64,000 nucleotides of DNA from Pseudomonas protegens CHA0 (lineage in GTDB: Bacteria > Pseudomonadota > Gammaproteobacteria > Pseudomonadales > Pseudomonadaceae), in assembly GCF_000397205.1 (NCBI RefSeq), contig NC_021237.1:2977001-3041000 (forward strand). The letters are read 5' to 3'. Each line of letters begins with the position of its first letter. Positions within the stretch are counted from its first letter, which is position 1. Both the position numbers and the translations under genes were made by a program. Below, piece after piece: positions 38,915-48,100 of this stretch. The notes under the pieces are model-generated. The model did no database searches. It had not been told where the DNA came from and saw only the letters and a list, made by a program, of their open reading frames with translations.

Positions 38915-39583
38915 TCAGACAAAATCCGCCGGTTCGAAGCGCTCGCTGGTGTCCATGCGGATAGCACGCAGGCCCAGCGTCTGCAGATGGGACTCATACA
39001 GCCCCAGGGCGCAATAGCTGACCAGCAAGCTGCGACGGCGCGCACCACTGGGGTTCAGACTGGCCCCATGCACCAGATCGGCATCGAACAGCAGCACGTC
39101 CCCCGCCTTACCCGCCAGTTGCAACGCTCGGGATTCATCACTGAAATCGAAGGGCGCCAACTGCTCCCCGGGGCGATGACTGCCGGGCACGATGCGCGTC
39201 GCGCCATTGGCCGGCCCATAGTCATCGAGATAGACCAGCGCCGTGACCCGGTCACCGAGGCGCTGATCCGACAGATCCCGGTGCAATACCTGATGACCGC
39301 CCCCCGCCAACGGCTCGCGGCCCTCCACCTGAGCCAGAAAAAAGCCTTCCCCGATCAACTCCCCGGCCACCGCCAACACCGCCGGCAAGCGACACACCGC
39401 CTGCACCCGTGCATCCAGATCCACCAGCGCATGCCGCCAATCCGGCCCCCGAGGCACCGGCCATTGCTCCGGCCCAATCACCCCCGCCTCGAAAGCGGCC
39501 CGCAGCTCATCCAACCAGCCGGCGGGCACCGCCTGACGCAGCAACAGGTAACCGTTTTGATGGAGTTGTTCGCGGTCGATCAT
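38915..39583 (-). CDS. Phytanoyl-CoA dioxygenase (PhyH) family protein
   Basis: A 222-residue Fe(II)/2-oxoglutarate dioxygenase. The facial triad is His101 and Asp103 in HRDLSD and His172 in DADLVHGA. Arg in GARRRSL near 182-184 is the expected 2-oxoglutarate ligand. The family includes phytanoyl-CoA hydroxylase, ectoine hydroxylase and many secondary-metabolite halogenases and hydroxylases. The ATG at 39583 fits the family start; a second ATG at 39622 adds 13 residues. It is a single gene, so the substrate is not indicated. Confidence 0.85.
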   Translation of the reverse strand: MIDREQLHQNGYLLLRQAVPAGWLDELRAAFEAGVIGPEQWPVPRGPDWRHALVDLDARVQAVCRLPAVLAVAGELIGEGFFLAQVEGREPLAGGGHQVLHRDLSDQRLGDRVTALVYLDDYGPANGATRIVPGSHRPGEQLAPFDFSDESRALQLAGKAGDVLLFDADLVHGASLNPSGARRRSLLVSYCALGLYESHLQTLGLRAIRMDTSERFEPADFV

Positions 39584-39680
39584 GAGGGGGCAGATGTCCT
39601 TATCCGGGGTGGGGGAAAGCATAACGGCTCGCTAATCCAAGCGACATAACCGGCTACGGTTTAGCGGTTGCCCCAGCGTG

Positions 39681-39778: not shown

Positions 39779-39877
39779 ATGTCTGCCGGTAATCTGTGTG
39801 AAGTTTGCTGCTGTTCCTTTCGCCTTCCTCCGCTCAAAAGCCTCTGCTGCCAGACCTTGGCGGGAGGTGCACGATGA
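39779..39877 (+). CDS. Small Cys-rich peptide, 32 residues, coupled to the DUF3077 gene
   Basis: ATG 39779 has an AGGGAG ribosome site eight bases upstream. The frame encodes 32 residues with six cysteines, clustered as Cys7, Cys10-12 and Cys23-24 (CEVCCC and LCCQ). Its TGA (39875-39877) overlaps the ATG of the DUF3077 gene by ATGA. No signal peptide. Function unknown: it may be a metal-binding or redox peptide, or a leader that couples translation. It is too short for most annotation tools. Confidence 0.6.
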   Translation: MSAGNLCEVCCCSFRLPPLKSLCCQTLAGGAR

Positions 39878-40155
39878 GCCATTCAAACTCGATCAAAACC
39901 CAAGGCTTTGTCACCTTTGGCCAATGTGCCGATCCTGAACTAACGTTGTTTCGCGTCAATGCGGATGTGCCTTTGCAGCAGGCGTTGGAGCAGGCTTCGA
40001 CGCTGTTGTACTACGCCAAGAAACTTGCGCTGGATGCGGCCATGGAAGAGCAGGGGGAGCGGTATGCGTGGGCTGCGTACTTTTTGGCGGAGATGGGGAA
40101 GGCGGTGGTTGATGATGTGGGGCTGGGGTTGGGGGCAGGAGGGATTCGGAGTTAA
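39874..40155 (+). CDS. DUF3077/DUF6124-type small protein, 93 residues
   Basis: A small cytosolic protein that starts MSHSNSIKTQGFVTFGQCAD and has the helical core ALEQASTLLYYAKKLALDAAMEE, typical of this Pseudomonas-restricted family, with a Gly-rich end (LGLGAGGIRS). GGGAGGTG precedes ATG 39874, which overlaps the stop of a 32-residue Cys-rich frame. Functions in the family are not established. Pseudomonas genomes often carry several copies. A terminator-like hairpin follows at 40183-40211. Confidence 0.82.
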   Translation: MSHSNSIKTQGFVTFGQCADPELTLFRVNADVPLQQALEQASTLLYYAKKLALDAAMEEQGERYAWAAYFLAEMGKAVVDDVGLGLGAGGIRS

Positions 40156-40229: not shown

Positions 40230-40256
40230 CACCTTTCGGCCAGAAGCGGACATTGG
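40230..40256. repeat. Left-flank copy of a dispersed repeat (CACCTTT...GGCCAGAAGCGGACATTGG)
   Basis: Closely resembles TTGGCCGGAAGCAGACGTTGG at 47012-47032, on the other side of the large STAND gene and in the same orientation. The CACCTTT prefix is also shared (46993-46999). Sequences like this are common in Pseudomonas and are often miscalled as ORFs (SASGQKRT-type peptides). Confidence 0.6.
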
Positions 40257-40422
40257 CACGCGACTGCTGAAGGCCAATAGCGGTCATCAGGTGTCTACAT
40301 AAACCGGGGTTATTCACTAGCGGTCTAGGGGGCGAGTGGCGTGTTAGCGTTACAGTCACGCTCGGCTTACATACAATCGACGAGATCCCGAATGAGCACT
40401 GTTGGCAAAGGACATAACAACA

Positions 40423-43400
40423 ATGCTGAATATTGATGACGACATCGAAACCGTACGCGCATCTCGTGCTGGCCACACCTTCCATGAGCGATGGGCTGCT
40501 AGACGAGCGCTGCAACTCGTCTTTCCTAATGATGATCTTTTTGCGATCGCCGTCGAAGGAATTTCATCAACTGAGACTGCAAGACCTGGAGCCCAAGCCG
40601 AAGAGGTTGCTGACCTTGTCCTCTATTATGGTCGTGGGGACAATTTTCAGGCATGTGAACGACTCGAGACCGTTCAATTCAAGTACAAGGTTCGAGAAGA
40701 AGCTGTCACTGCGTCGTATCTCAAAAAGACCATCGAGAAGTTTTCCGACACGATACTCGGCTATGAGAAGGATTTCTCAGCTGCCGAAGTCGACAAAAAG
40801 ACGTCATTCATCTTCGTCACGAGCGCTGAGTTTAAGGACAGCCTCTGGGAAGCAATAAAGTCCCTCATTGAGGGAACGAACCCTTCATCCTCCGACGCAG
40901 CCACTCAATTTCGAAACCTTAAGAAGTGGTGCGCAAAGCGCGGTCTTTCAGATGCAAGCCGTCTCTTCACGAGGATAGTTTTTCGAGCTGGAGAAAAGAG
41001 TCTTGCGGCTCAAGATAACGCCCTCAAGCGCACACTTACCGACTGGTCGGCAGGTGCTGACTTGGAGGCTAGGGGGCGTATTCTCGGCCTCCAGGAGCTC
41101 GTTCTAAAGAAAGCTGGCCCAAGTGGTCAGGGTAAGAATCTGATTCATCGCGAAGATGTCTTGGACGCTCTCGACTGCGAGCCGGAGGATCTCTTTCCGG
41201 CTGAGACCCGCTTCATCGACGTGGGTGAGGTCGTTGAGAGAGTTGAACTTTCGATCACCAGCAATCTGGTCAAGGAGTCAGATCTACCCGTCTTTGTTCA
41301 CGCGGAAGGAGGGGTAGGTAAAACAGTATTTGTCCAAAGTCTCGCAGCAATCATGGCGAGCGAATTCGAGGTTGTCGTTTTTGATTGCTTCGGTGGTGGT
41401 TCATATCGCTCGGACAATCATGCCCGGCATCTCCCCAAGATCGGGCTGGTGCAAATCGTCAACGAATTGGTCTCGCGGACCCTATGTGATCCGATGCTGC
41501 CTGGAGGGGATGACAGTCGCAAAGTCATCAAGGCGGCGTGCAAACGGCTTTCACAGGCAGCGACGGCGATTCGGACTCAGTCGAGCAAACTGGGTTTGCT
41601 TATCATCATTGATGCTGCAGATAACGCTCAACTCGAAGCGGATGACCGCCATGAGGAGTCGTTTCCGAAGCGTCTTCTCGCCGCTTTACACGAGGAACCG
41701 ATTGATGGTGTGAAGCTGCTTCTTACGGCGCGCCCCTACCGTAAGGATAAGGTCATTGACTGCGCCAGGGTTAGCGAGATCGAGCTAGGACCATTTACAG
41801 ATCCAGAGGCCCGTGAGTTTTTGAAAAGCCGGAAGCCAGATGCTTCCGAGGTGGCAATAGCCACTGCCTTGGCTCGATCTGGTCGGAACGCACGAGTCCT
41901 TGATTACCTCGTTCAAACCTGGGACACGAATGTTCTGGGTGAAGCTTCGATAGCCAATATCACGGTCCCAGAGATCATTGCTCAGCGTTGCAGCAAGATC
42001 ATCTCGGATCTGCATATTGCTGGATGGCCGGATTCAGAAATAACTGAATTTTTCGTCGCCCTGTCACTTCTACCTCCGCCCATCCCACTTGAGGAACTGG
42101 CGCGCGCACTGGGGTGGCCAGTGGTCCAGGTGAACACCGCCGCATCCGATTTGGCTCCAATGCTTGAGGTCACATCGCACGGTGCGATCTTCAGAGACGA
42201 GCCCACGGAGTCTTATATTCGGGAGACATTTTCTGAGCGGCCTGATGCACAAAGAGCTATTGCAGACCGCCTTCTAGCGTCACAAGCGATTTCAACCTAT
42301 GCCGCTGAAGCGTTACCGCACTTTCTTGTCGTGATCAAAGATAGCGATCGAGCCTTCGCACTCGCCGACTCAGTCAGCTTCCCGAGTTCGGTGCAGTCGG
42401 AGTTTGGCCGGCGCAGGCTTACACTCGCCAGGCTTCGTGCGGCGTTCAGACTGGCTGTGGCAGAAGATGACTTTGACCGAGTGCTTGGCCTCAGTATGAG
42501 GTTAGGGCAGGTTGCTACGGCCAACATGCGAGGCGACGAGTTCATTCGTCGTTCGCCAGCTCTGGCAATTGTGCTAGGAGACTCTGACTCCTATCGTCGC
42601 CTCTTTGCTGATCGCTCTGGATGGCGTGGTGCTCGAAGCGCTCGGTTGACGGTTGCGCATCGTTTTGCGGGGGACTCGCAAGAGGCACAAATCCAATGTG
42701 AGAGCACAATCCGGTGGATTAATTGGCATTCCGCTCAGCTGTGTGACGAAACACATCGAGACTTGGCCGGCCCAGAAGTTGGTGACTACTTGGCGGTGCT
42801 TTTTCACCATGTTGCTCAGGGTGAGTTCAGCAGGGCCGATCACAACCTTGCTAGCTGGAGTGATCGCTTCTCAATGTCGGCAAGCGACGAGCTTTTCCAG
42901 CTGCTAGAGCTGCTCGATCAGGCAAGCGGCACGTCGATACTTTCTGATTTTGTCTCGTTTGCCGTAAGCAACGAGTGCACGTCGCAGGCGCTTAAGATGC
43001 AGCTATTATCGCAGCCCCGTTACCTTCGAAAACAGCAGGTGAAGTTACTCGCAAATGCGATTGTCACTTCCGCTTCTTCCATAAGCGAAGAGATCGAGCG
43101 CTTTCCAGCGGGGCTCGAGCGAAGCAGAAGTTACGTTGTGGATGCAGCTTTAACGACACTCTTCCACAGTTCGCGAGCCGCTGCTGCGGCTATCATCCGC
43201 CACACACCAGTAACTCGTCCCGCAGCATTCGAATACAACGAGCGTTTCGGACACTCGAGTATTTGGGGCTCCATTCTTAGCGCCTGTATTGGTGCGTGGT
43301 CGGCTGGAAGAAGGGTTGCCTATCATGATTTGCTTCCTAGGGAAGTGAAGGTCAACAGGCAGGCGAAAGCTGTCTCGACCAAGAAAGAGTTGCAGGTGTT

Positions 43401-46400
43401 CTTGAAAGCTCTTCGCGAGCCCATTCCAGAGCACGCGCGTGAGAAGGGCGATAAGAACAAACTGAGAGCGAGGTTCAGCGACCGAGAATGCGAGGACATA
43501 AGTAGAGGAGTCGAGCTGGCGCGAGAGCTTACTCGGCCAATTGAGGATGCCGTTCTCTCTCGGACGTCTCTCACGGAAACCAGTGTCAGCGAGTTTTTGC
43601 AGGCGTGGCGCAAGCACTTGCGGAATGATATTCACTGGCGAGCTGAAAGCGCAGTGGATTTGCTCGCTCGCTCAGTCGGTTTCGGTTGCATGCATATCTT
43701 GCTAGAGCAAGCACCTGCGATATCTTCCGAGCAGGCTGCGACCATGATTGACTTGGTTTCCACTGGGCGGTTCTTTGTCCAGCAAAAAATCGACTTGTTA
43801 GGCCAGCTCGCACATCGATCTAACCTCCACGCTCTTGCAGGTGAATTTGCACAGCATGTCGCAGAGGTTATCCGTCAAGATGACAATATCGGACAGCGTG
43901 GGGATACCTACGTAACACTTGCTGCTTCTCTTGTGCCGATGAGTATTGATGAGGCTCGAGAATACTATCGGCAAGGTCTTGCTCAGTTGGATCAGTTGGG
44001 CGGAGAGAGCTATGAACTAATCTACTCACTTCTTGAGCTTGCAAGTGCCCAGAAAGGCGGCTTTCTCAAGCCTGTGTTGGCTCAGCGACTGATGAATCTC
44101 TGTCAGACTATCGCGAGTAGCGAGCCTAGAAAGTTCGGGTGGACAGCATTTGCGCGTGCCGCAGCCCAATCCATAGGATTTCCGGCGATGGCAAAGCTCG
44201 TGCGTTGGCACGACCAGGATGTGGCGGATCTTTCATATGGAATGCCACAGCTTGCATGCTTTCTTGCTAAAAATAAGAGTCTTGATCCACGTCGCGCGGC
44301 TCTCATCCTAACGCTTTGTGAGGATCATGGTTGGTGGGATTGGCGTTCCGGAGATGGGGTTGCTGATCTACTGAAACTAACTGCCCCTTCGGCTCAACGA
44401 AAGGTTTATCAGGCTATCGTCGCCAAACTGAAGGCAGAATACCCTTTCGGTGGTTGGCCCTCACTTTGGGAAGGCTTCCTCGAAACAGGCAATCAATTTC
44501 CGAACGTAATTACTTCAGAAGAGCGTGAGGATATCCAGCGGCTATGGGTAGAGTCTAAGCGCAGCCAGGATGAATTTAACAGTCGCAATAGCTCGTCGCC
44601 AGCCTTCCGAGGTGTTCAAACCCCGAAGCCAAGCGAGGCAGAGATTGATGATCTCATTGCAGCGCTGGTAGCGGCTTGCGATCCAACCTCGGCAAGTTCG
44701 ATCGACAAAATATTGAAGATCATCAAGAAGGACCACAATCTTTCGTACTCGGATCGGCAAAGTTTTATCAGTAGAGTGAGCGATGCCTGCCCATACCCAA
44801 GGCGCTTGGCTTTTTTGTTCGCAGTTTGCGATGCGGCCGAGCTAGGTTTTACTCAGTCGCTGGATATCCTCGCAGAGCGTTTCACGGCATGGAGTGGCTC
44901 ATCCGCCCATCTTACTTCTAATACGGCGGCGCTAGTTGAGCGGTTGTTTGAGAGCAAGAGTGTCGAGCTGTTCGAGGATCAGTTCTCTAAAATCTCACGT
45001 GACATTCGCCAGCTGTCGGACTTCTGTGGTGACAAGCGGTTTGTATTGAGGCTCATTCTTCGCAAGGTCGCTGCGGATGAGGTGGAGCTCGGTGGTGACG
45101 AATGGATTCAACTATCGACTGCGCTGTGTGACGTGGCATCAGGTCAAGCTAGCCTCGATTCGCTTGAGTTGCTGTTGTCCGGGCCGGCTGCCCGCATCGC
45201 TGACGAGATAGGAGAGGGCCCGCTACGGCCTGAGCAAGAAATCAGTGGCAGCGAAGCAGAGTTCGTGTCTGACCTCATTTGGCATCGCCTTGGGAACGAA
45301 GATGCTTACGTCCGCTGGGCCGCCGCGAGAGGGCTAAATACACTTATCGAACTAGGGCTCAACAATGAGCTCAGTTTGTTGCTCGATCGCTTTGATCAAA
45401 GAGAAGTGGGATTCCTTGCCTCCGCAGAGTTGAAGCTATCCTTTCAAAACTCTCAGCAGTGGTTGCTTATGGGACTTGCGCGGGTTGCCGCACGACATGG
45501 AAAAATACTCGAACCACTTAGGCCCAAGCTGGTGGCTCTTGCTCAGCGAAACGACTTGCATGTCATACATAAGGTTCACGTCGCCAGGTGTCTTCGGAAT
45601 ATCAATGGGGACAATGCCGATGACGCAGATTTAGCTGCGTTGCGCGAGCAGATCGACAATCCCCCCCTCGGTTTTCTTACTAGTGACGGTTACCCAGCTG
45701 CCGTAAATCCTACATCAGGATTTGAATTCGACTACGAATTTACTAAGCACGAGATCAGCGGTCTTGCTCAACTTTTTAATGTGTCAAAGGGAGTAGTTCA
45801 AGATGCTCTCGCTTCGGAGATTACGCTCCGATGGCCGGAGGCTGACTCGATGGATTACTTCCCAGGCCGGGAGCGGCACCATTGGGATCATGGGAGTCGA
45901 TATGAGCTTTATCGGGAGCATGTTCAAAGGCACGCATTGCTTAGTGCCGCTACAAGCCTATCAAAGGCTCTACCAGTAGTTATTCGGAGCTATGACGCTG
46001 ATGGTGAATCACCGTGGAAGAAATGGCGTGATCGTTACGATGTCACATTCGAGGATGGTATATGGCTGTCAGACCGTAAGGACTCTGTACCTCAGCAGGC
46101 GAAAGAAAACCTGTTAGGTGAAAGTGTGGGTCGGCAGGAGGTGCTGCAGGAGCAGGGAATATTGCTGCGAAAATTAGGCTATGTGACCGATGATAGCGAC
46201 GCGTTTTTCCCACTATATGGCCGCTGGTCCTCGCCTGATGGAGTGTCGGTAAGCATTACTTCGGCGCTGACTGAAAGACGAGGAGCGATAGGTCGGTGCA
46301 TGGCATTAGCCAAACAGCCTAGCCATGATCTTTGGCTACCTGAGTTCTGGGATGAAGGGTATTACGACCGCCGGATTCGCCAGGAGACCCCTTTCGCTCC

Positions 46401-46851
46401 ATTTGTGTGGGCACCTGAAATCCACAGTCTTGGTATCGATGTAGGAGAAGAAATCGCTGCTCAGGGGGCGGGGAGAAGACCGCGGCTTGGCGTCAACCTC
46501 ACAAATAGCTTGGGGCTGGTGAATCAGTTACACAGTAATGAGTGGCGCACGAGAACTGGACGATTGGCTTTGAGAAGCCAGGTATGGGGCAGTTGGAAAC
46601 CAGATCCCGATGACGGCCGTTCGCACCATCATGAGGACGGCGAGATCTTATGGGCTTCGCCCGCATGGCTTGCAACGACATTGCCCACTCTCAATCGACA
46701 ACTTGTATTCACCGTAAGGCTTTGGAAATCCAAGTCATCGCGCGACTACAAGCCTTCAAACGACCTCAAATCAATCCGAGTAGGACTGCGCTCCGATGAC
46801 GGCTCGTTAAGGCTTTGGCCGGCAAGGAAGGCTTCGAAAAGTGGCTATTGA
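40423..46851 (+). CDS. Giant STAND (NACHT-like) ATPase with N-terminal nuclease-like domain, putative Avs-like anti-phage protein
   Basis: A 2142-residue protein (ATG 40423 with AAAGGA ten bases before; a TTG at 40402 would add seven residues). Residues ~15-200 look like a Cap4/DUF4297-type PD-(D/E)xK nuclease: Glu22 in FHERWAARRAL, Asp64 in VADLVLYYG, and Gln85-Phe-Lys87 in VQFKYK. The P-loop ATPase follows: Walker A GGVGKT at 296-301, Walker B LLIIIDAAD ending in Asp397/Asp400, and sensor-like LLTARP at 433-438. The remaining ~1600 residues are helical and lack a known enzyme motif, the expected place for a ligand-sensing TPR/HEAT-like region; a conserved-looking Trp/His-rich segment (GRERHHWDHGSRYELYREH) lies near residue 1820. 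This is the Avs (antiviral STAND) architecture, in which phage protein binding triggers oligomerisation and DNA cleavage, but it is longer than usual Avs proteins. GC is visibly lower than in the flanks. No integrase is beside it. Confidence 0.82.
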   Translation: MLNIDDDIETVRASRAGHTFHERWAARRALQLVFPNDDLFAIAVEGISSTETARPGAQAEEVADLVLYYGRGDNFQACERLETVQFKYKVREEAVTASYLKKTIEKFSDTILGYEKDFSAAEVDKKTSFIFVTSAEFKDSLWEAIKSLIEGTNPSSSDAATQFRNLKKWCAKRGLSDASRLFTRIVFRAGEKSLAAQDNALKRTLTDWSAGADLEARGRILGLQELVLKKAGPSGQGKNLIHREDVLDALDCEPEDLFPAETRFIDVGEVVERVELSITSNLVKESDLPVFVHAEGGVGKTVFVQSLAAIMASEFEVVVFDCFGGGSYRSDNHARHLPKIGLVQIVNELVSRTLCDPMLPGGDDSRKVIKAACKRLSQAATAIRTQSSKLGLLIIIDAADNAQLEADDRHEESFPKRLLAALHEEPIDGVKLLLTARPYRKDKVIDCARVSEIELGPFTDPEAREFLKSRKPDASEVAIATALARSGRNARVLDYLVQTWDTNVLGEASIANITVPEIIAQRCSKIISDLHIAGWPDSEITEFFVALSLLPPPIPLEELARALGWPVVQVNTAASDLAPMLEVTSHGAIFRDEPTESYIRETFSERPDAQRAIADRLLASQAISTYAAEALPHFLVVIKDSDRAFALADSVSFPSSVQSEFGRRRLTLARLRAAFRLAVAEDDFDRVLGLSMRLGQVATANMRGDEFIRRSPALAIVLGDSDSYRRLFADRSGWRGARSARLTVAHRFAGDSQEAQIQCESTIRWINWHSAQLCDETHRDLAGPEVGDYLAVLFHHVAQGEFSRADHNLASWSDRFSMSASDELFQLLELLDQASGTSILSDFVSFAVSNECTSQALKMQLLSQPRYLRKQQVKLLANAIVTSASSISEEIERFPAGLERSRSYVVDAALTTLFHSSRAAAAAIIRHTPVTRPAAFEYNERFGHSSIWGSILSACIGAWSAGRRVAYHDLLPREVKVNRQAKAVSTKKELQVFLKALREPIPEHAREKGDKNKLRARFSDRECEDISRGVELARELTRPIEDAVLSRTSLTETSVSEFLQAWRKHLRNDIHWRAESAVDLLARSVGFGCMHILLEQAPAISSEQAATMIDLVSTGRFFVQQKIDLLGQLAHRSNLHALAGEFAQHVAEVIRQDDNIGQRGDTYVTLAASLVPMSIDEAREYYRQGLAQLDQLGGESYELIYSLLELASAQKGGFLKPVLAQRLMNLCQTIASSEPRKFGWTAFARAAAQSIGFPAMAKLVRWHDQDVADLSYGMPQLACFLAKNKSLDPRRAALILTLCEDHGWWDWRSGDGVADLLKLTAPSAQRKVYQAIVAKLKAEYPFGGWPSLWEGFLETGNQFPNVITSEEREDIQRLWVESKRSQDEFNSRNSSSPAFRGVQTPKPSEAEIDDLIAALVAACDPTSASSIDKILKIIKKDHNLSYSDRQSFISRVSDACPYPRRLAFLFAVCDAAELGFTQSLDILAERFTAWSGSSAHLTSNTAALVERLFESKSVELFEDQFSKISRDIRQLSDFCGDKRFVLRLILRKVAADEVELGGDEWIQLSTALCDVASGQASLDSLELLLSGPAARIADEIGEGPLRPEQEISGSEAEFVSDLIWHRLGNEDAYVRWAAARGLNTLIELGLNNELSLLLDRFDQREVGFLASAELKLSFQNSQQWLLMGLARVAARHGKILEPLRPKLVALAQRNDLHVIHKVHVARCLRNINGDNADDADLAALREQIDNPPLGFLTSDGYPAAVNPTSGFEFDYEFTKHEISGLAQLFNVSKGVVQDALASEITLRWPEADSMDYFPGRERHHWDHGSRYELYREHVQRHALLSAATSLSKALPVVIRSYDADGESPWKKWRDRYDVTFEDGIWLSDRKDSVPQQAKENLLGESVGRQEVLQEQGILLRKLGYVTDDSDAFFPLYGRWSSPDGVSVSITSALTERRGAIGRCMALAKQPSHDLWLPEFWDEGYYDRRIRQETPFAPFVWAPEIHSLGIDVGEEIAAQGAGRRPRLGVNLTNSLGLVNQLHSNEWRTRTGRLALRSQVWGSWKPDPDDGRSHHHEDGEILWASPAWLATTLPTLNRQLVFTVRLWKSKSSRDYKPSNDLKSIRVGLRSDDGSLRLWPARKASKSGY

Positions 46852-47141
46852 TGGAGTCAAGGCACGTTACACCAATGCAATTACCCTGGTTCTAGCAGCT
46901 CCGACAGACGAAACCCGCGAGATCCTGACTGGCCCGGCGTGGCTTGAGCCAGATTTTTCGGCCAAGATATCGAATTGCCCCTAAATTAGAGACACCTTTG
47001 AGCGTCCGCTTTTGGCCGGAAGCAGACGTTGGTATTGCATACGAATATGCCACCCCCGGGTGAAGTGACAACAGAAGAGCAGATATCCTCCATATCAATC
47101 TAAAGGCTGCTTATCCAAACGCTCTGTTTAAGGGACCAGAC
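46852..47141. other. Intergenic region after the STAND gene
   Basis: Holds the right-flank repeat at 47012-47032 (TTGGCCGGAAGCAGACGTTGG), similar in sequence and orientation to the one at 40230-40256. A short minus-strand frame here contains the SASGQKRT peptide typical of miscalled repeat ORFs. No gene or terminator is convincing. Confidence 0.6.
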
Positions 47142-47588
47142 ATGAACGTTGAAATCATCGAGTTCAGAAAATTGCTAGAAGCCGGGCGGCGTTACCTGGA
47201 AGGCACCGCCACCCTCGCCGAACTAAACGGTCGAGTCAGGGCAACATTGGAGGCCGGACACTTCTGGGGAGCATCAGCGCCACTCATGGAAGTCGCCCGA
47301 AACTGGGAACACATGATTAACCGCGCCTGGAATGAAATGGGCGAGCACCACGCTCCGCTGACCGAGGTCCAGTTCAGCGAGTGGTTGCGGCAGCAGTTCT
47401 ACTTCCCAGTCCGTGACAGCCAGTTTTCAGTAAACGAAAGAGCAGTGCATTGCGCTTCCGCTCAGTCGCTCGCTCAAAACGTCGGCGGCGTTATCACCCA
47501 CAACACCACCGCATCCTCCTCCCCAGGATTCCCATACTTATGCGGTTCCTGGCTGGAGAAACTAAAACTATCCCCCTCACTCAGCTGA
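47142..47588 (+). CDS. Hypothetical protein, 148 residues, possibly truncated
   Basis: The first ~90 residues (MNVEIIEFRKLLEAGRRYLE, AGHFWGASAPLMEVARNWEH) look like a normal small helical protein with AAGGGA before ATG 47142. The last ~38 residues, from 47474, overlap the 3' end of the convergent XRE-cupin gene by 115 bases and read as low-complexity sequence dictated by the other strand. The real protein may have lost its C-terminus, perhaps through insertion or deletion at the island edge. Family not recognised. Confidence 0.5.
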   Translation: MNVEIIEFRKLLEAGRRYLEGTATLAELNGRVRATLEAGHFWGASAPLMEVARNWEHMINRAWNEMGEHHAPLTEVQFSEWLRQQFYFPVRDSQFSVNERAVHCASAQSLAQNVGGVITHNTTASSSPGFPYLCGSWLEKLKLSPSLS

Positions 47589-48100
47589 AAATACCGCTCG
47601 CCCACCCACAGCTCAAAGCTCCCCGACAGCACATACCCGGCTTCCTCGCCCTCATGGCTGTAACTCTCCTTGCTGTAGGTCCCCGGCGGAAACCGTGAGT
47701 GCAAAAACTCCAACTGCCGGGTCGGCTGCGGGGTCAGCAGTTGATCGATAATCCCGTTCTCATAATTCACCTGCAGCCGCTGTTTTTTGCGTACCACATA
47801 GCCTTGGTCTTCGGGTGCGGTCTGGGTTTCGCTGGCGAAGAACCATTGGATGGTCACGCCCAGGCTGCGGGCGATGTTGAACAGGGCGGGGATGGAGGGG
47901 TAGGCGAGGTTGCGTTCCAGTTGGCTGATGTAGCCGGCGGTGAGTTCGCTCTGTTGCGCCAGTTCGCTCAGGGTCAGGCCGCGGCGTTTGCGCAGGCCGC
48001 GAATGCGGGTGCCAAGGAACTGCGGGCCGCCAGGGGCCTGGTTGTCGCTGCCGGGCTCGGGCGCGGTGCTCGCGGGCGGCGTCTTGCTGCTTGGGTTCAT
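47474..48100 (-). CDS. XRE family regulator with cupin domain
   Basis: A 208-residue regulator. The N-terminal XRE HTH spans about residues 31-86 (LRKRRGLTLSELAQQSELTA, GYISQLERN). The C-terminal cupin spans about 135-205 (SHEGEEAGYVLSGSFELWVG, FSFSSQEPHKYGN). This fold is typical of PuuR-type regulators that bind small ligands and repress catabolic genes. It is followed, 73 bp away on the same strand (upstream), by the oxidoreductase gene, so the two are one operon or closely linked. Operator candidates are TTTAC/GTAAA repeats at 50196-50230. The ligand is unknown. Confidence 0.9.
   Translation of the reverse strand: MNPSSKTPPASTAPEPGSDNQAPGGPQFLGTRIRGLRKRRGLTLSELAQQSELTAGYISQLERNLAYPSIPALFNIARSLGVTIQWFFASETQTAPEDQGYVVRKKQRLQVNYENGIIDQLLTPQPTRQLEFLHSRFPPGTYSKESYSHEGEEAGYVLSGSFELWVGERYFQLSEGDSFSFSSQEPHKYGNPGEEDAVVLWVITPPTF

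Follow-up and report, generated by a model that had tools for sequence, protein, structure and literature searches.

An Avs3-like STAND nuclease gene without avs3b in a chromosomal hotspot of Pseudomonas protegens CHA0

According to published accounts, the nucleases of Avs1 to Avs4 cut the genomes of phage and host alike once terminase, portal or Ksap1 has been sensed (PMC12931631), tetramerisation of SeAvs3 leads to pairing of its nucleases (PMC11291478), and an Avs1-type system of Erwinia is also triggered by terminase (PMC12799240). Here we analyse P0001, the product of a gene on the forward strand (40423..46851) of a 64,000-nucleotide window of the P. protegens CHA0 genome (NC_021237.1, 2,977,001 to 3,041,000). 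An earlier sequence-only reading had taken it for an antiviral STAND (Avs) protein of unusual length, a candidate for an undescribed system with possibly a different phage ligand. We find that P0001 belongs to Avs3 in the broad sense, with an end-to-end match to the Avs3a profile, a nuclease, a STAND ATPase and a SeAvs3-like sensor. It is a distant sister of Avs3, hence a known kind of system, in a little-studied branch devoid of the usual partner gene. The novel part is this avs3b-less branch, which falls outside the NCBIfam Avs3a model when its cut-off is applied. The Avs-type protein with nuclease, STAND ATPase and sensor was supported, as was its place in a defence hotspot; the unusual length, the undescribed system and a different ligand deduced from length were not.

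The gene and its assignment to Avs3

Translation bore out the predicted 2142-residue protein, with an intact frame of 2142 codons running from an ATG at 40423 to the stop at 46851. A stretch upstream of this ATG (AAAGGA) resembles a ribosome site; the mechanical start of the open reading frame (ORF) was an in-frame TTG at 40402, 5' of the ATG. The motifs listed in the sequence-only reading (E22, D64, Q85, K87, GGVGKT at 296-301, DAAD at 397-400 and LLTARP at 433-438) were all correctly placed, and its remark on deviant GC and codon usage also held. The GC content of the gene was 0.529 and its GC at third codon positions 0.528, as compared with 0.660-0.891 at third positions in 12 other measured genes of the window. 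We found 1364 database proteins matching P0001 (E ≤ 0.001) among 7992 scored candidates, and a chance ORF was rejected in view of the long open frame and these matches. The best 120 of the matches were 60-98% identical to P0001 and mostly 2110-2190 residues long, and SeAvs3 itself counts 2092 residues, so that the length is not unusual.

The gene was identified by its translation and by matches to the Avs3a profile, to NCBIfam, to the Protein Data Bank (PDB) and to the protein database. The PADLOC Avs3a profile spanned residues 9-2114 of P0001 (positions 5-2066 of 2090; E 1.6e-164), with no other PADLOC family listed at E ≤ 10, and SeAvs3 (PDB 8dgc) was the sole PDB sequence match at E ≤ 1. 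Avs3a was also the only Avs model listed in the PADLOC and NCBIfam scans taken together, the presence of Avs1 and Avs2 models in those libraries being unconfirmed. Profile comparison (hhalign) of 32 clade rows with 9 Avs3b-linked rows gave E values of 1.3e-38 (residues 1-260), 2.4e-49 (261-560), 5.8e-17 (561-999), 5.3e-12 (1000-1450) and 1.1e-35 (1450-2142), as against 0.045-0.26 for four mismatched control segments. As the segments were cut by joint alignment, these values bear on the homology of corresponding parts rather than on the discovery of those parts. Because the length and architecture of P0001 are those of Avs3, which it matches over its full length, the proposal of an undescribed system is not supported.

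Membership of Avs4 was rejected, since its model (NF041815) matched neither P0001 by hmmscan (E ≤ 10) nor anything in its own genome (E ≤ 0.001). Avs5 did not fit either; the N-terminus of P0001 has a nuclease fold, and the Avs5 effector is reported to be Sir2 (PMC12931631). NF041818, which we had guessed to be a further Avs model, turned out to be Dsr1.

From sequence and models, P0001 is collinear with SeAvs3: a Cap4-like nuclease is followed by a STAND ATPase and by a predicted sensor of helical repeats, which ends in an alpha/beta domain. Residue conservation was scored in 56 aligned family rows, 54 of them different. The PD-(D/E)xK nuclease domain (about residues 9-253; 40447..41181, +) shows conserved E45, D64 and Q85-x-K87, with D64 and K87 present in all 56 rows and E45 and Q85 in 55, and fold matches of the AlphaFold2 (AF2) model agree with the Cap4-like nuclease proposed earlier, as does this conservation with its D64 and Q85-x-K87. 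Glu22, proposed as a further active-site residue, was found in all 30 clade rows with a residue at this position (4 rows were gapped). Six of the 8 remaining avs3b-less rows also had it, as did 1 of the 14 Avs3b-linked rows. Because 12 of these 14 carry Tyr, Glu22 is not a catalytic acidic residue of the whole family.

The STAND/NACHT ATPase (about residues 258-606; 41194..42240, +) had likewise been correctly recognised. It carries Walker A at 296-301, the Walker B DAAD at 397-400 and R437, and matched Pfam NACHT (E 4.3e-7; 30.4 bits, above the cut-off of 26.7) and, structurally, STAND, NLR and Apaf-1 chains. G297, G299, K300, D397, D400 and R437 were invariant in the 56 rows. The helical-repeat region (about residues 607-1745; 42241..45657, +) was delimited by AF2 secondary structure and a profile match to canonical Avs3, and the C-terminal sensor part (about residues 1746-2142, the alpha/beta domain extending from about 1929 to the end; 45658..46848, +) by AF2, superposition on SeAvs3 and hhalign. 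Residues 30-1134 of the AF2 sensor-half model superposed on SeAvs3 990-2082, in agreement with the long C-terminal sensor foreseen by the sequence-only reading.

The companion gene and the distribution of the branch

Annotated Avs3a genes on Klebsiella and Janthinobacterium plasmids are each followed by an overlapping avs3b. With an iterated Avs3b profile, we detected avs3b at 14 of the 33 loci scanned, and at neither the window, 10 clade loci nor 8 further loci. The NCBIfam Avs3b model (NF041817) was positive in both control genomes with the pair, with a score there of 195 bits (cut-off 200); it had no match in the whole genome of P0001 and none in six genomes carrying other avs3b-less relatives. 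An ORF at 47142-47588 was rejected as avs3b, having no NCBIfam match and being missed by the Avs3b profile. Neither 'Avs3b' nor 'AVAST type III' was found in any paper of the literature searched; this does not show that no such paper exists.

We built a 56-row tree from 26 of the 120 listed proteins, 29 loci and the window. Five clade loci were not included, three for want of a long ORF (L034, L036, L039) and two because their contigs were short (L038, L040), the latter two being absent from the avs3b scan as well. In this tree the distribution of avs3b needed two changes, and L054, L055, L062 and L063 had very long branches. A 22-row tree made without these four split Avs3b-linked from avs3b-less proteins by one change with 100/100 support, and still needed one change when they were re-added singly. 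Two of them that lack avs3b, L054 and L063, joined the avs3b side on re-addition; therefore, the absence of avs3b also occurs outside the branch of the window, in two rows of uncertain place. Both are very divergent Avs3-like proteins, and their grouping with the Avs3b-linked side is uncertain.

In the genus of the window, 19 of 298 genomes had a match, its own included. The other listed matches in the genus were 23-32% identical over the aligned stretch, except for a 108-residue fragment at 47%. The P0001 clade is present in many named Pseudomonadota, where the source annotation examined calls its members only 'NACHT domain-containing', 'ATP-binding' or 'hypothetical' protein. A phage-borne gene was rejected, as 50,697 phage records gave no match at E 1e-5. 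Twenty plasmid records matched P0001, 5 of them over at least 80% of the query; two plasmid matches in Rhizobium leguminosarum (H2 and H3) overlap IS transposase genes and look like broken or misassembled copies, as do clade members L034, L036 and L039, the longest frames of which are far below full length.

We also looked for a conserved companion at 10 clade loci (up to 5 ORFs per side, ORFs of at least 90 residues). None of the 87 neighbour ORFs had a blastp match between loci (E 1e-5), and such a companion was rejected. PADLOC was run on 10 of these ORFs and gave strong matches to PD-Lambda-4_A at L030 and to the Olokun proteins OloA and OloB at L043, weaker matches at L035 and L032 and none for five; the ten were picked from the 87 as likely candidates, so that this is no measure of defence enrichment. 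On an Agrobacterium plasmid (L043:14633-20166), a DUF6119/TIGR04141 gene and the Olokun pair come after the clade member. A DUF6615 gene (L030:8251-9204; E 1.3e-87) lies upstream of another clade member and adjoins the PD-Lambda-4_A gene, and a 702-residue neighbour (L033:7845-9953) had no Pfam or PADLOC match at E 0.001.

Proposed mechanism and ligand

Our analysis indicates that P0001 is probably a stand-alone antiphage STAND nuclease of Avs3 type that senses phage terminase. By analogy with SeAvs3, its sensor would recognise tailed phages by binding their large terminase subunit during infection, upon which ATP-loaded protomers would form a tetramer. The nuclease domains, now paired, would be switched on to cleave the DNA of both phage and host, and cell death would precede phage release. 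P0001 would do so without an Avs3b partner, and presumably arrived as a single gene in a chromosomal hotspot, in which relatives carry other defence-like systems.

Several results weigh against this interpretation. P0001 scored 622.3 bits with the NCBIfam Avs3a model (NF041816), short of the curated cut-off of 2800, and was just 19-24% identical to 14 Avs3b-linked Avs3 proteins, identity in the sensor being low, at 0.12-0.23 per 100 residues from residue 1301 on (mean of 8 canonical rows). The model of its N-terminal half fitted 8dgc only with an rmsd of 38 Å, the domain placement being different, and avs3b is missing from the locus and, by the NCBIfam model, from the genome. The low sensor identity and the missing avs3b, together with the deep separate clade in the tree, would also suit an Avs-type machine of an avs3b-independent lineage in which the sensor has shifted to another phage protein, such as portal or some other protein of the phage head. 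The lineage would then form an Avs type of its own, shaped like Avs3 and with its own ligand. For Avs5, triggering by several distinct phage ligands has been suggested (PMC12931631). We consider such a shift unlikely, in that the whole predicted sensor superposes on terminase-bound SeAvs3 (8dgc), a fold which also tells against a different ligand deduced from length. Moreover, portal-bound Avs4 (8dgf) did not appear in the top 50 rows of the sensor-half structure search, though similarity to it or to an unlisted family is not thereby excluded, and the Avs4 model found nothing in the genome.

It is very improbable that the gene is a degenerate or inactive Avs3-like copy which has persisted in the island by chance. 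The truncated frames of L034, L036 and L039 show that relatives can fall far short of full length, and nothing in the window points the same way; the frame is open throughout, the nuclease and ATPase residues are intact, and a full-length database protein is 98% identical. Least probable of all is a regulatory STAND ATPase of MalT/Apaf-1 type with no role in defence. The STAND domain does resemble Apaf-1 and the maltose-system regulator (8bob), but the nuclease fold with conserved residues, the end-to-end Avs3 match and the position in a defence hotspot speak against it.

The chromosomal hotspot and comparison with known systems

The locus forms a defence hotspot of a single cassette, bordered by a small conserved gene and by the gene of an XRE-type regulator. 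The left flank comprises a gene with weak hydroxylase/dioxygenase model matches, which we labelled PhyH-like (38915..39622, −), and the small conserved gene (93 residues; 39874..40155, +); the right flank is a PuuR-like XRE-type transcriptional regulator with, in our reading, a cupin part (47474..48100, −). Four relatives found via left-flank DNA (L091-L094) all had both flanks, homology stopping at 40230-40251 and restarting at 47009-47473. Bounded by L091, in which left homology ends at 40230 and right homology resumes at 47009, the variable cassette is 40231..47008. The cargoes of the four were all different (GC 0.41-0.49) and defence-like. They consisted of a type III-A retron set (RT, WH, PRTase; L094), a PDC-M26A-like AAA protein with a DUF2357/PDDEXK_7 protein that we labelled McrBC-like (L091), an SMC-like ATPase with a putAbiC protein and a third gene without assignment (L093), and a 789-residue STAND-like ATPase with a GNAT-like protein, neither with a PADLOC match (L092). 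This ATPase (L092:10456-12825, +), with weak AAA_16/NB-ARC matches, is a candidate uncharacterised defence gene. No empty site was found: all four of these were filled, and in five relatives selected through the right flank (L074-L078) the 14-19 kb retrieved contained none of the left-flank genes.

An imperfect 23-nucleotide direct repeat (40234..40256 and 47010..47032, both +), found by eye and by pattern count, lies around the Avs3-like gene near the ends of flank homology, its copies being 19/23 identical. The computed repeat search did not list the pair. A degenerate pattern made from both copies, which match it perfectly by construction, had two further matches at 2 mismatches, the same count as in the reversed control (2). 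A similar motif with 4 mismatches occurs at L093:10498. The repeat is a candidate insertion site. Defence hotspots on P. aeruginosa islands were mapped in 2025, and the present locus was not seen among them in the portion of that work consulted (PMC12629846).

P0001 marks an avs3b-less branch of the Avs3 family that occurs in many Pseudomonadota under generic annotation. Through this branch it can be tested directly whether the sensing of terminase goes back to the ancestor of all Avs3-like proteins, and what Avs3b contributes. The hotspot delimited by the flanks is compact and could be mined in the genus, one of four relatives examined having a STAND-like gene without a PADLOC match.

Among known systems, Cap4 (CBASS) and DUF4297 of HerA-DUF4297 belong to separate systems with other sensors (PMC11291478). 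The effector domain is the only part that they have in common with P0001. Avs4 (8dgf, NF041815) is a weaker structural match to the N-terminal half (E 4.2e-8), and its model has 1579 positions as compared with 2142 residues in P0001; the two share the plan of nuclease, STAND and repeat sensor. With SeAvs3/Avs3a (AVAST type 3; 8dgc, NF041816, PADLOC PDLC02167), P0001 shares domain order, length class, nuclease and ATPase residues and a superposable predicted sensor. In contrast, it is 22% identical to Avs3a of the Klebsiella plasmid (L041), has Glu22 where most Avs3b-linked proteins have Tyr, and lacks the avs3b found downstream in Avs3a, both at that position and elsewhere in its genome.
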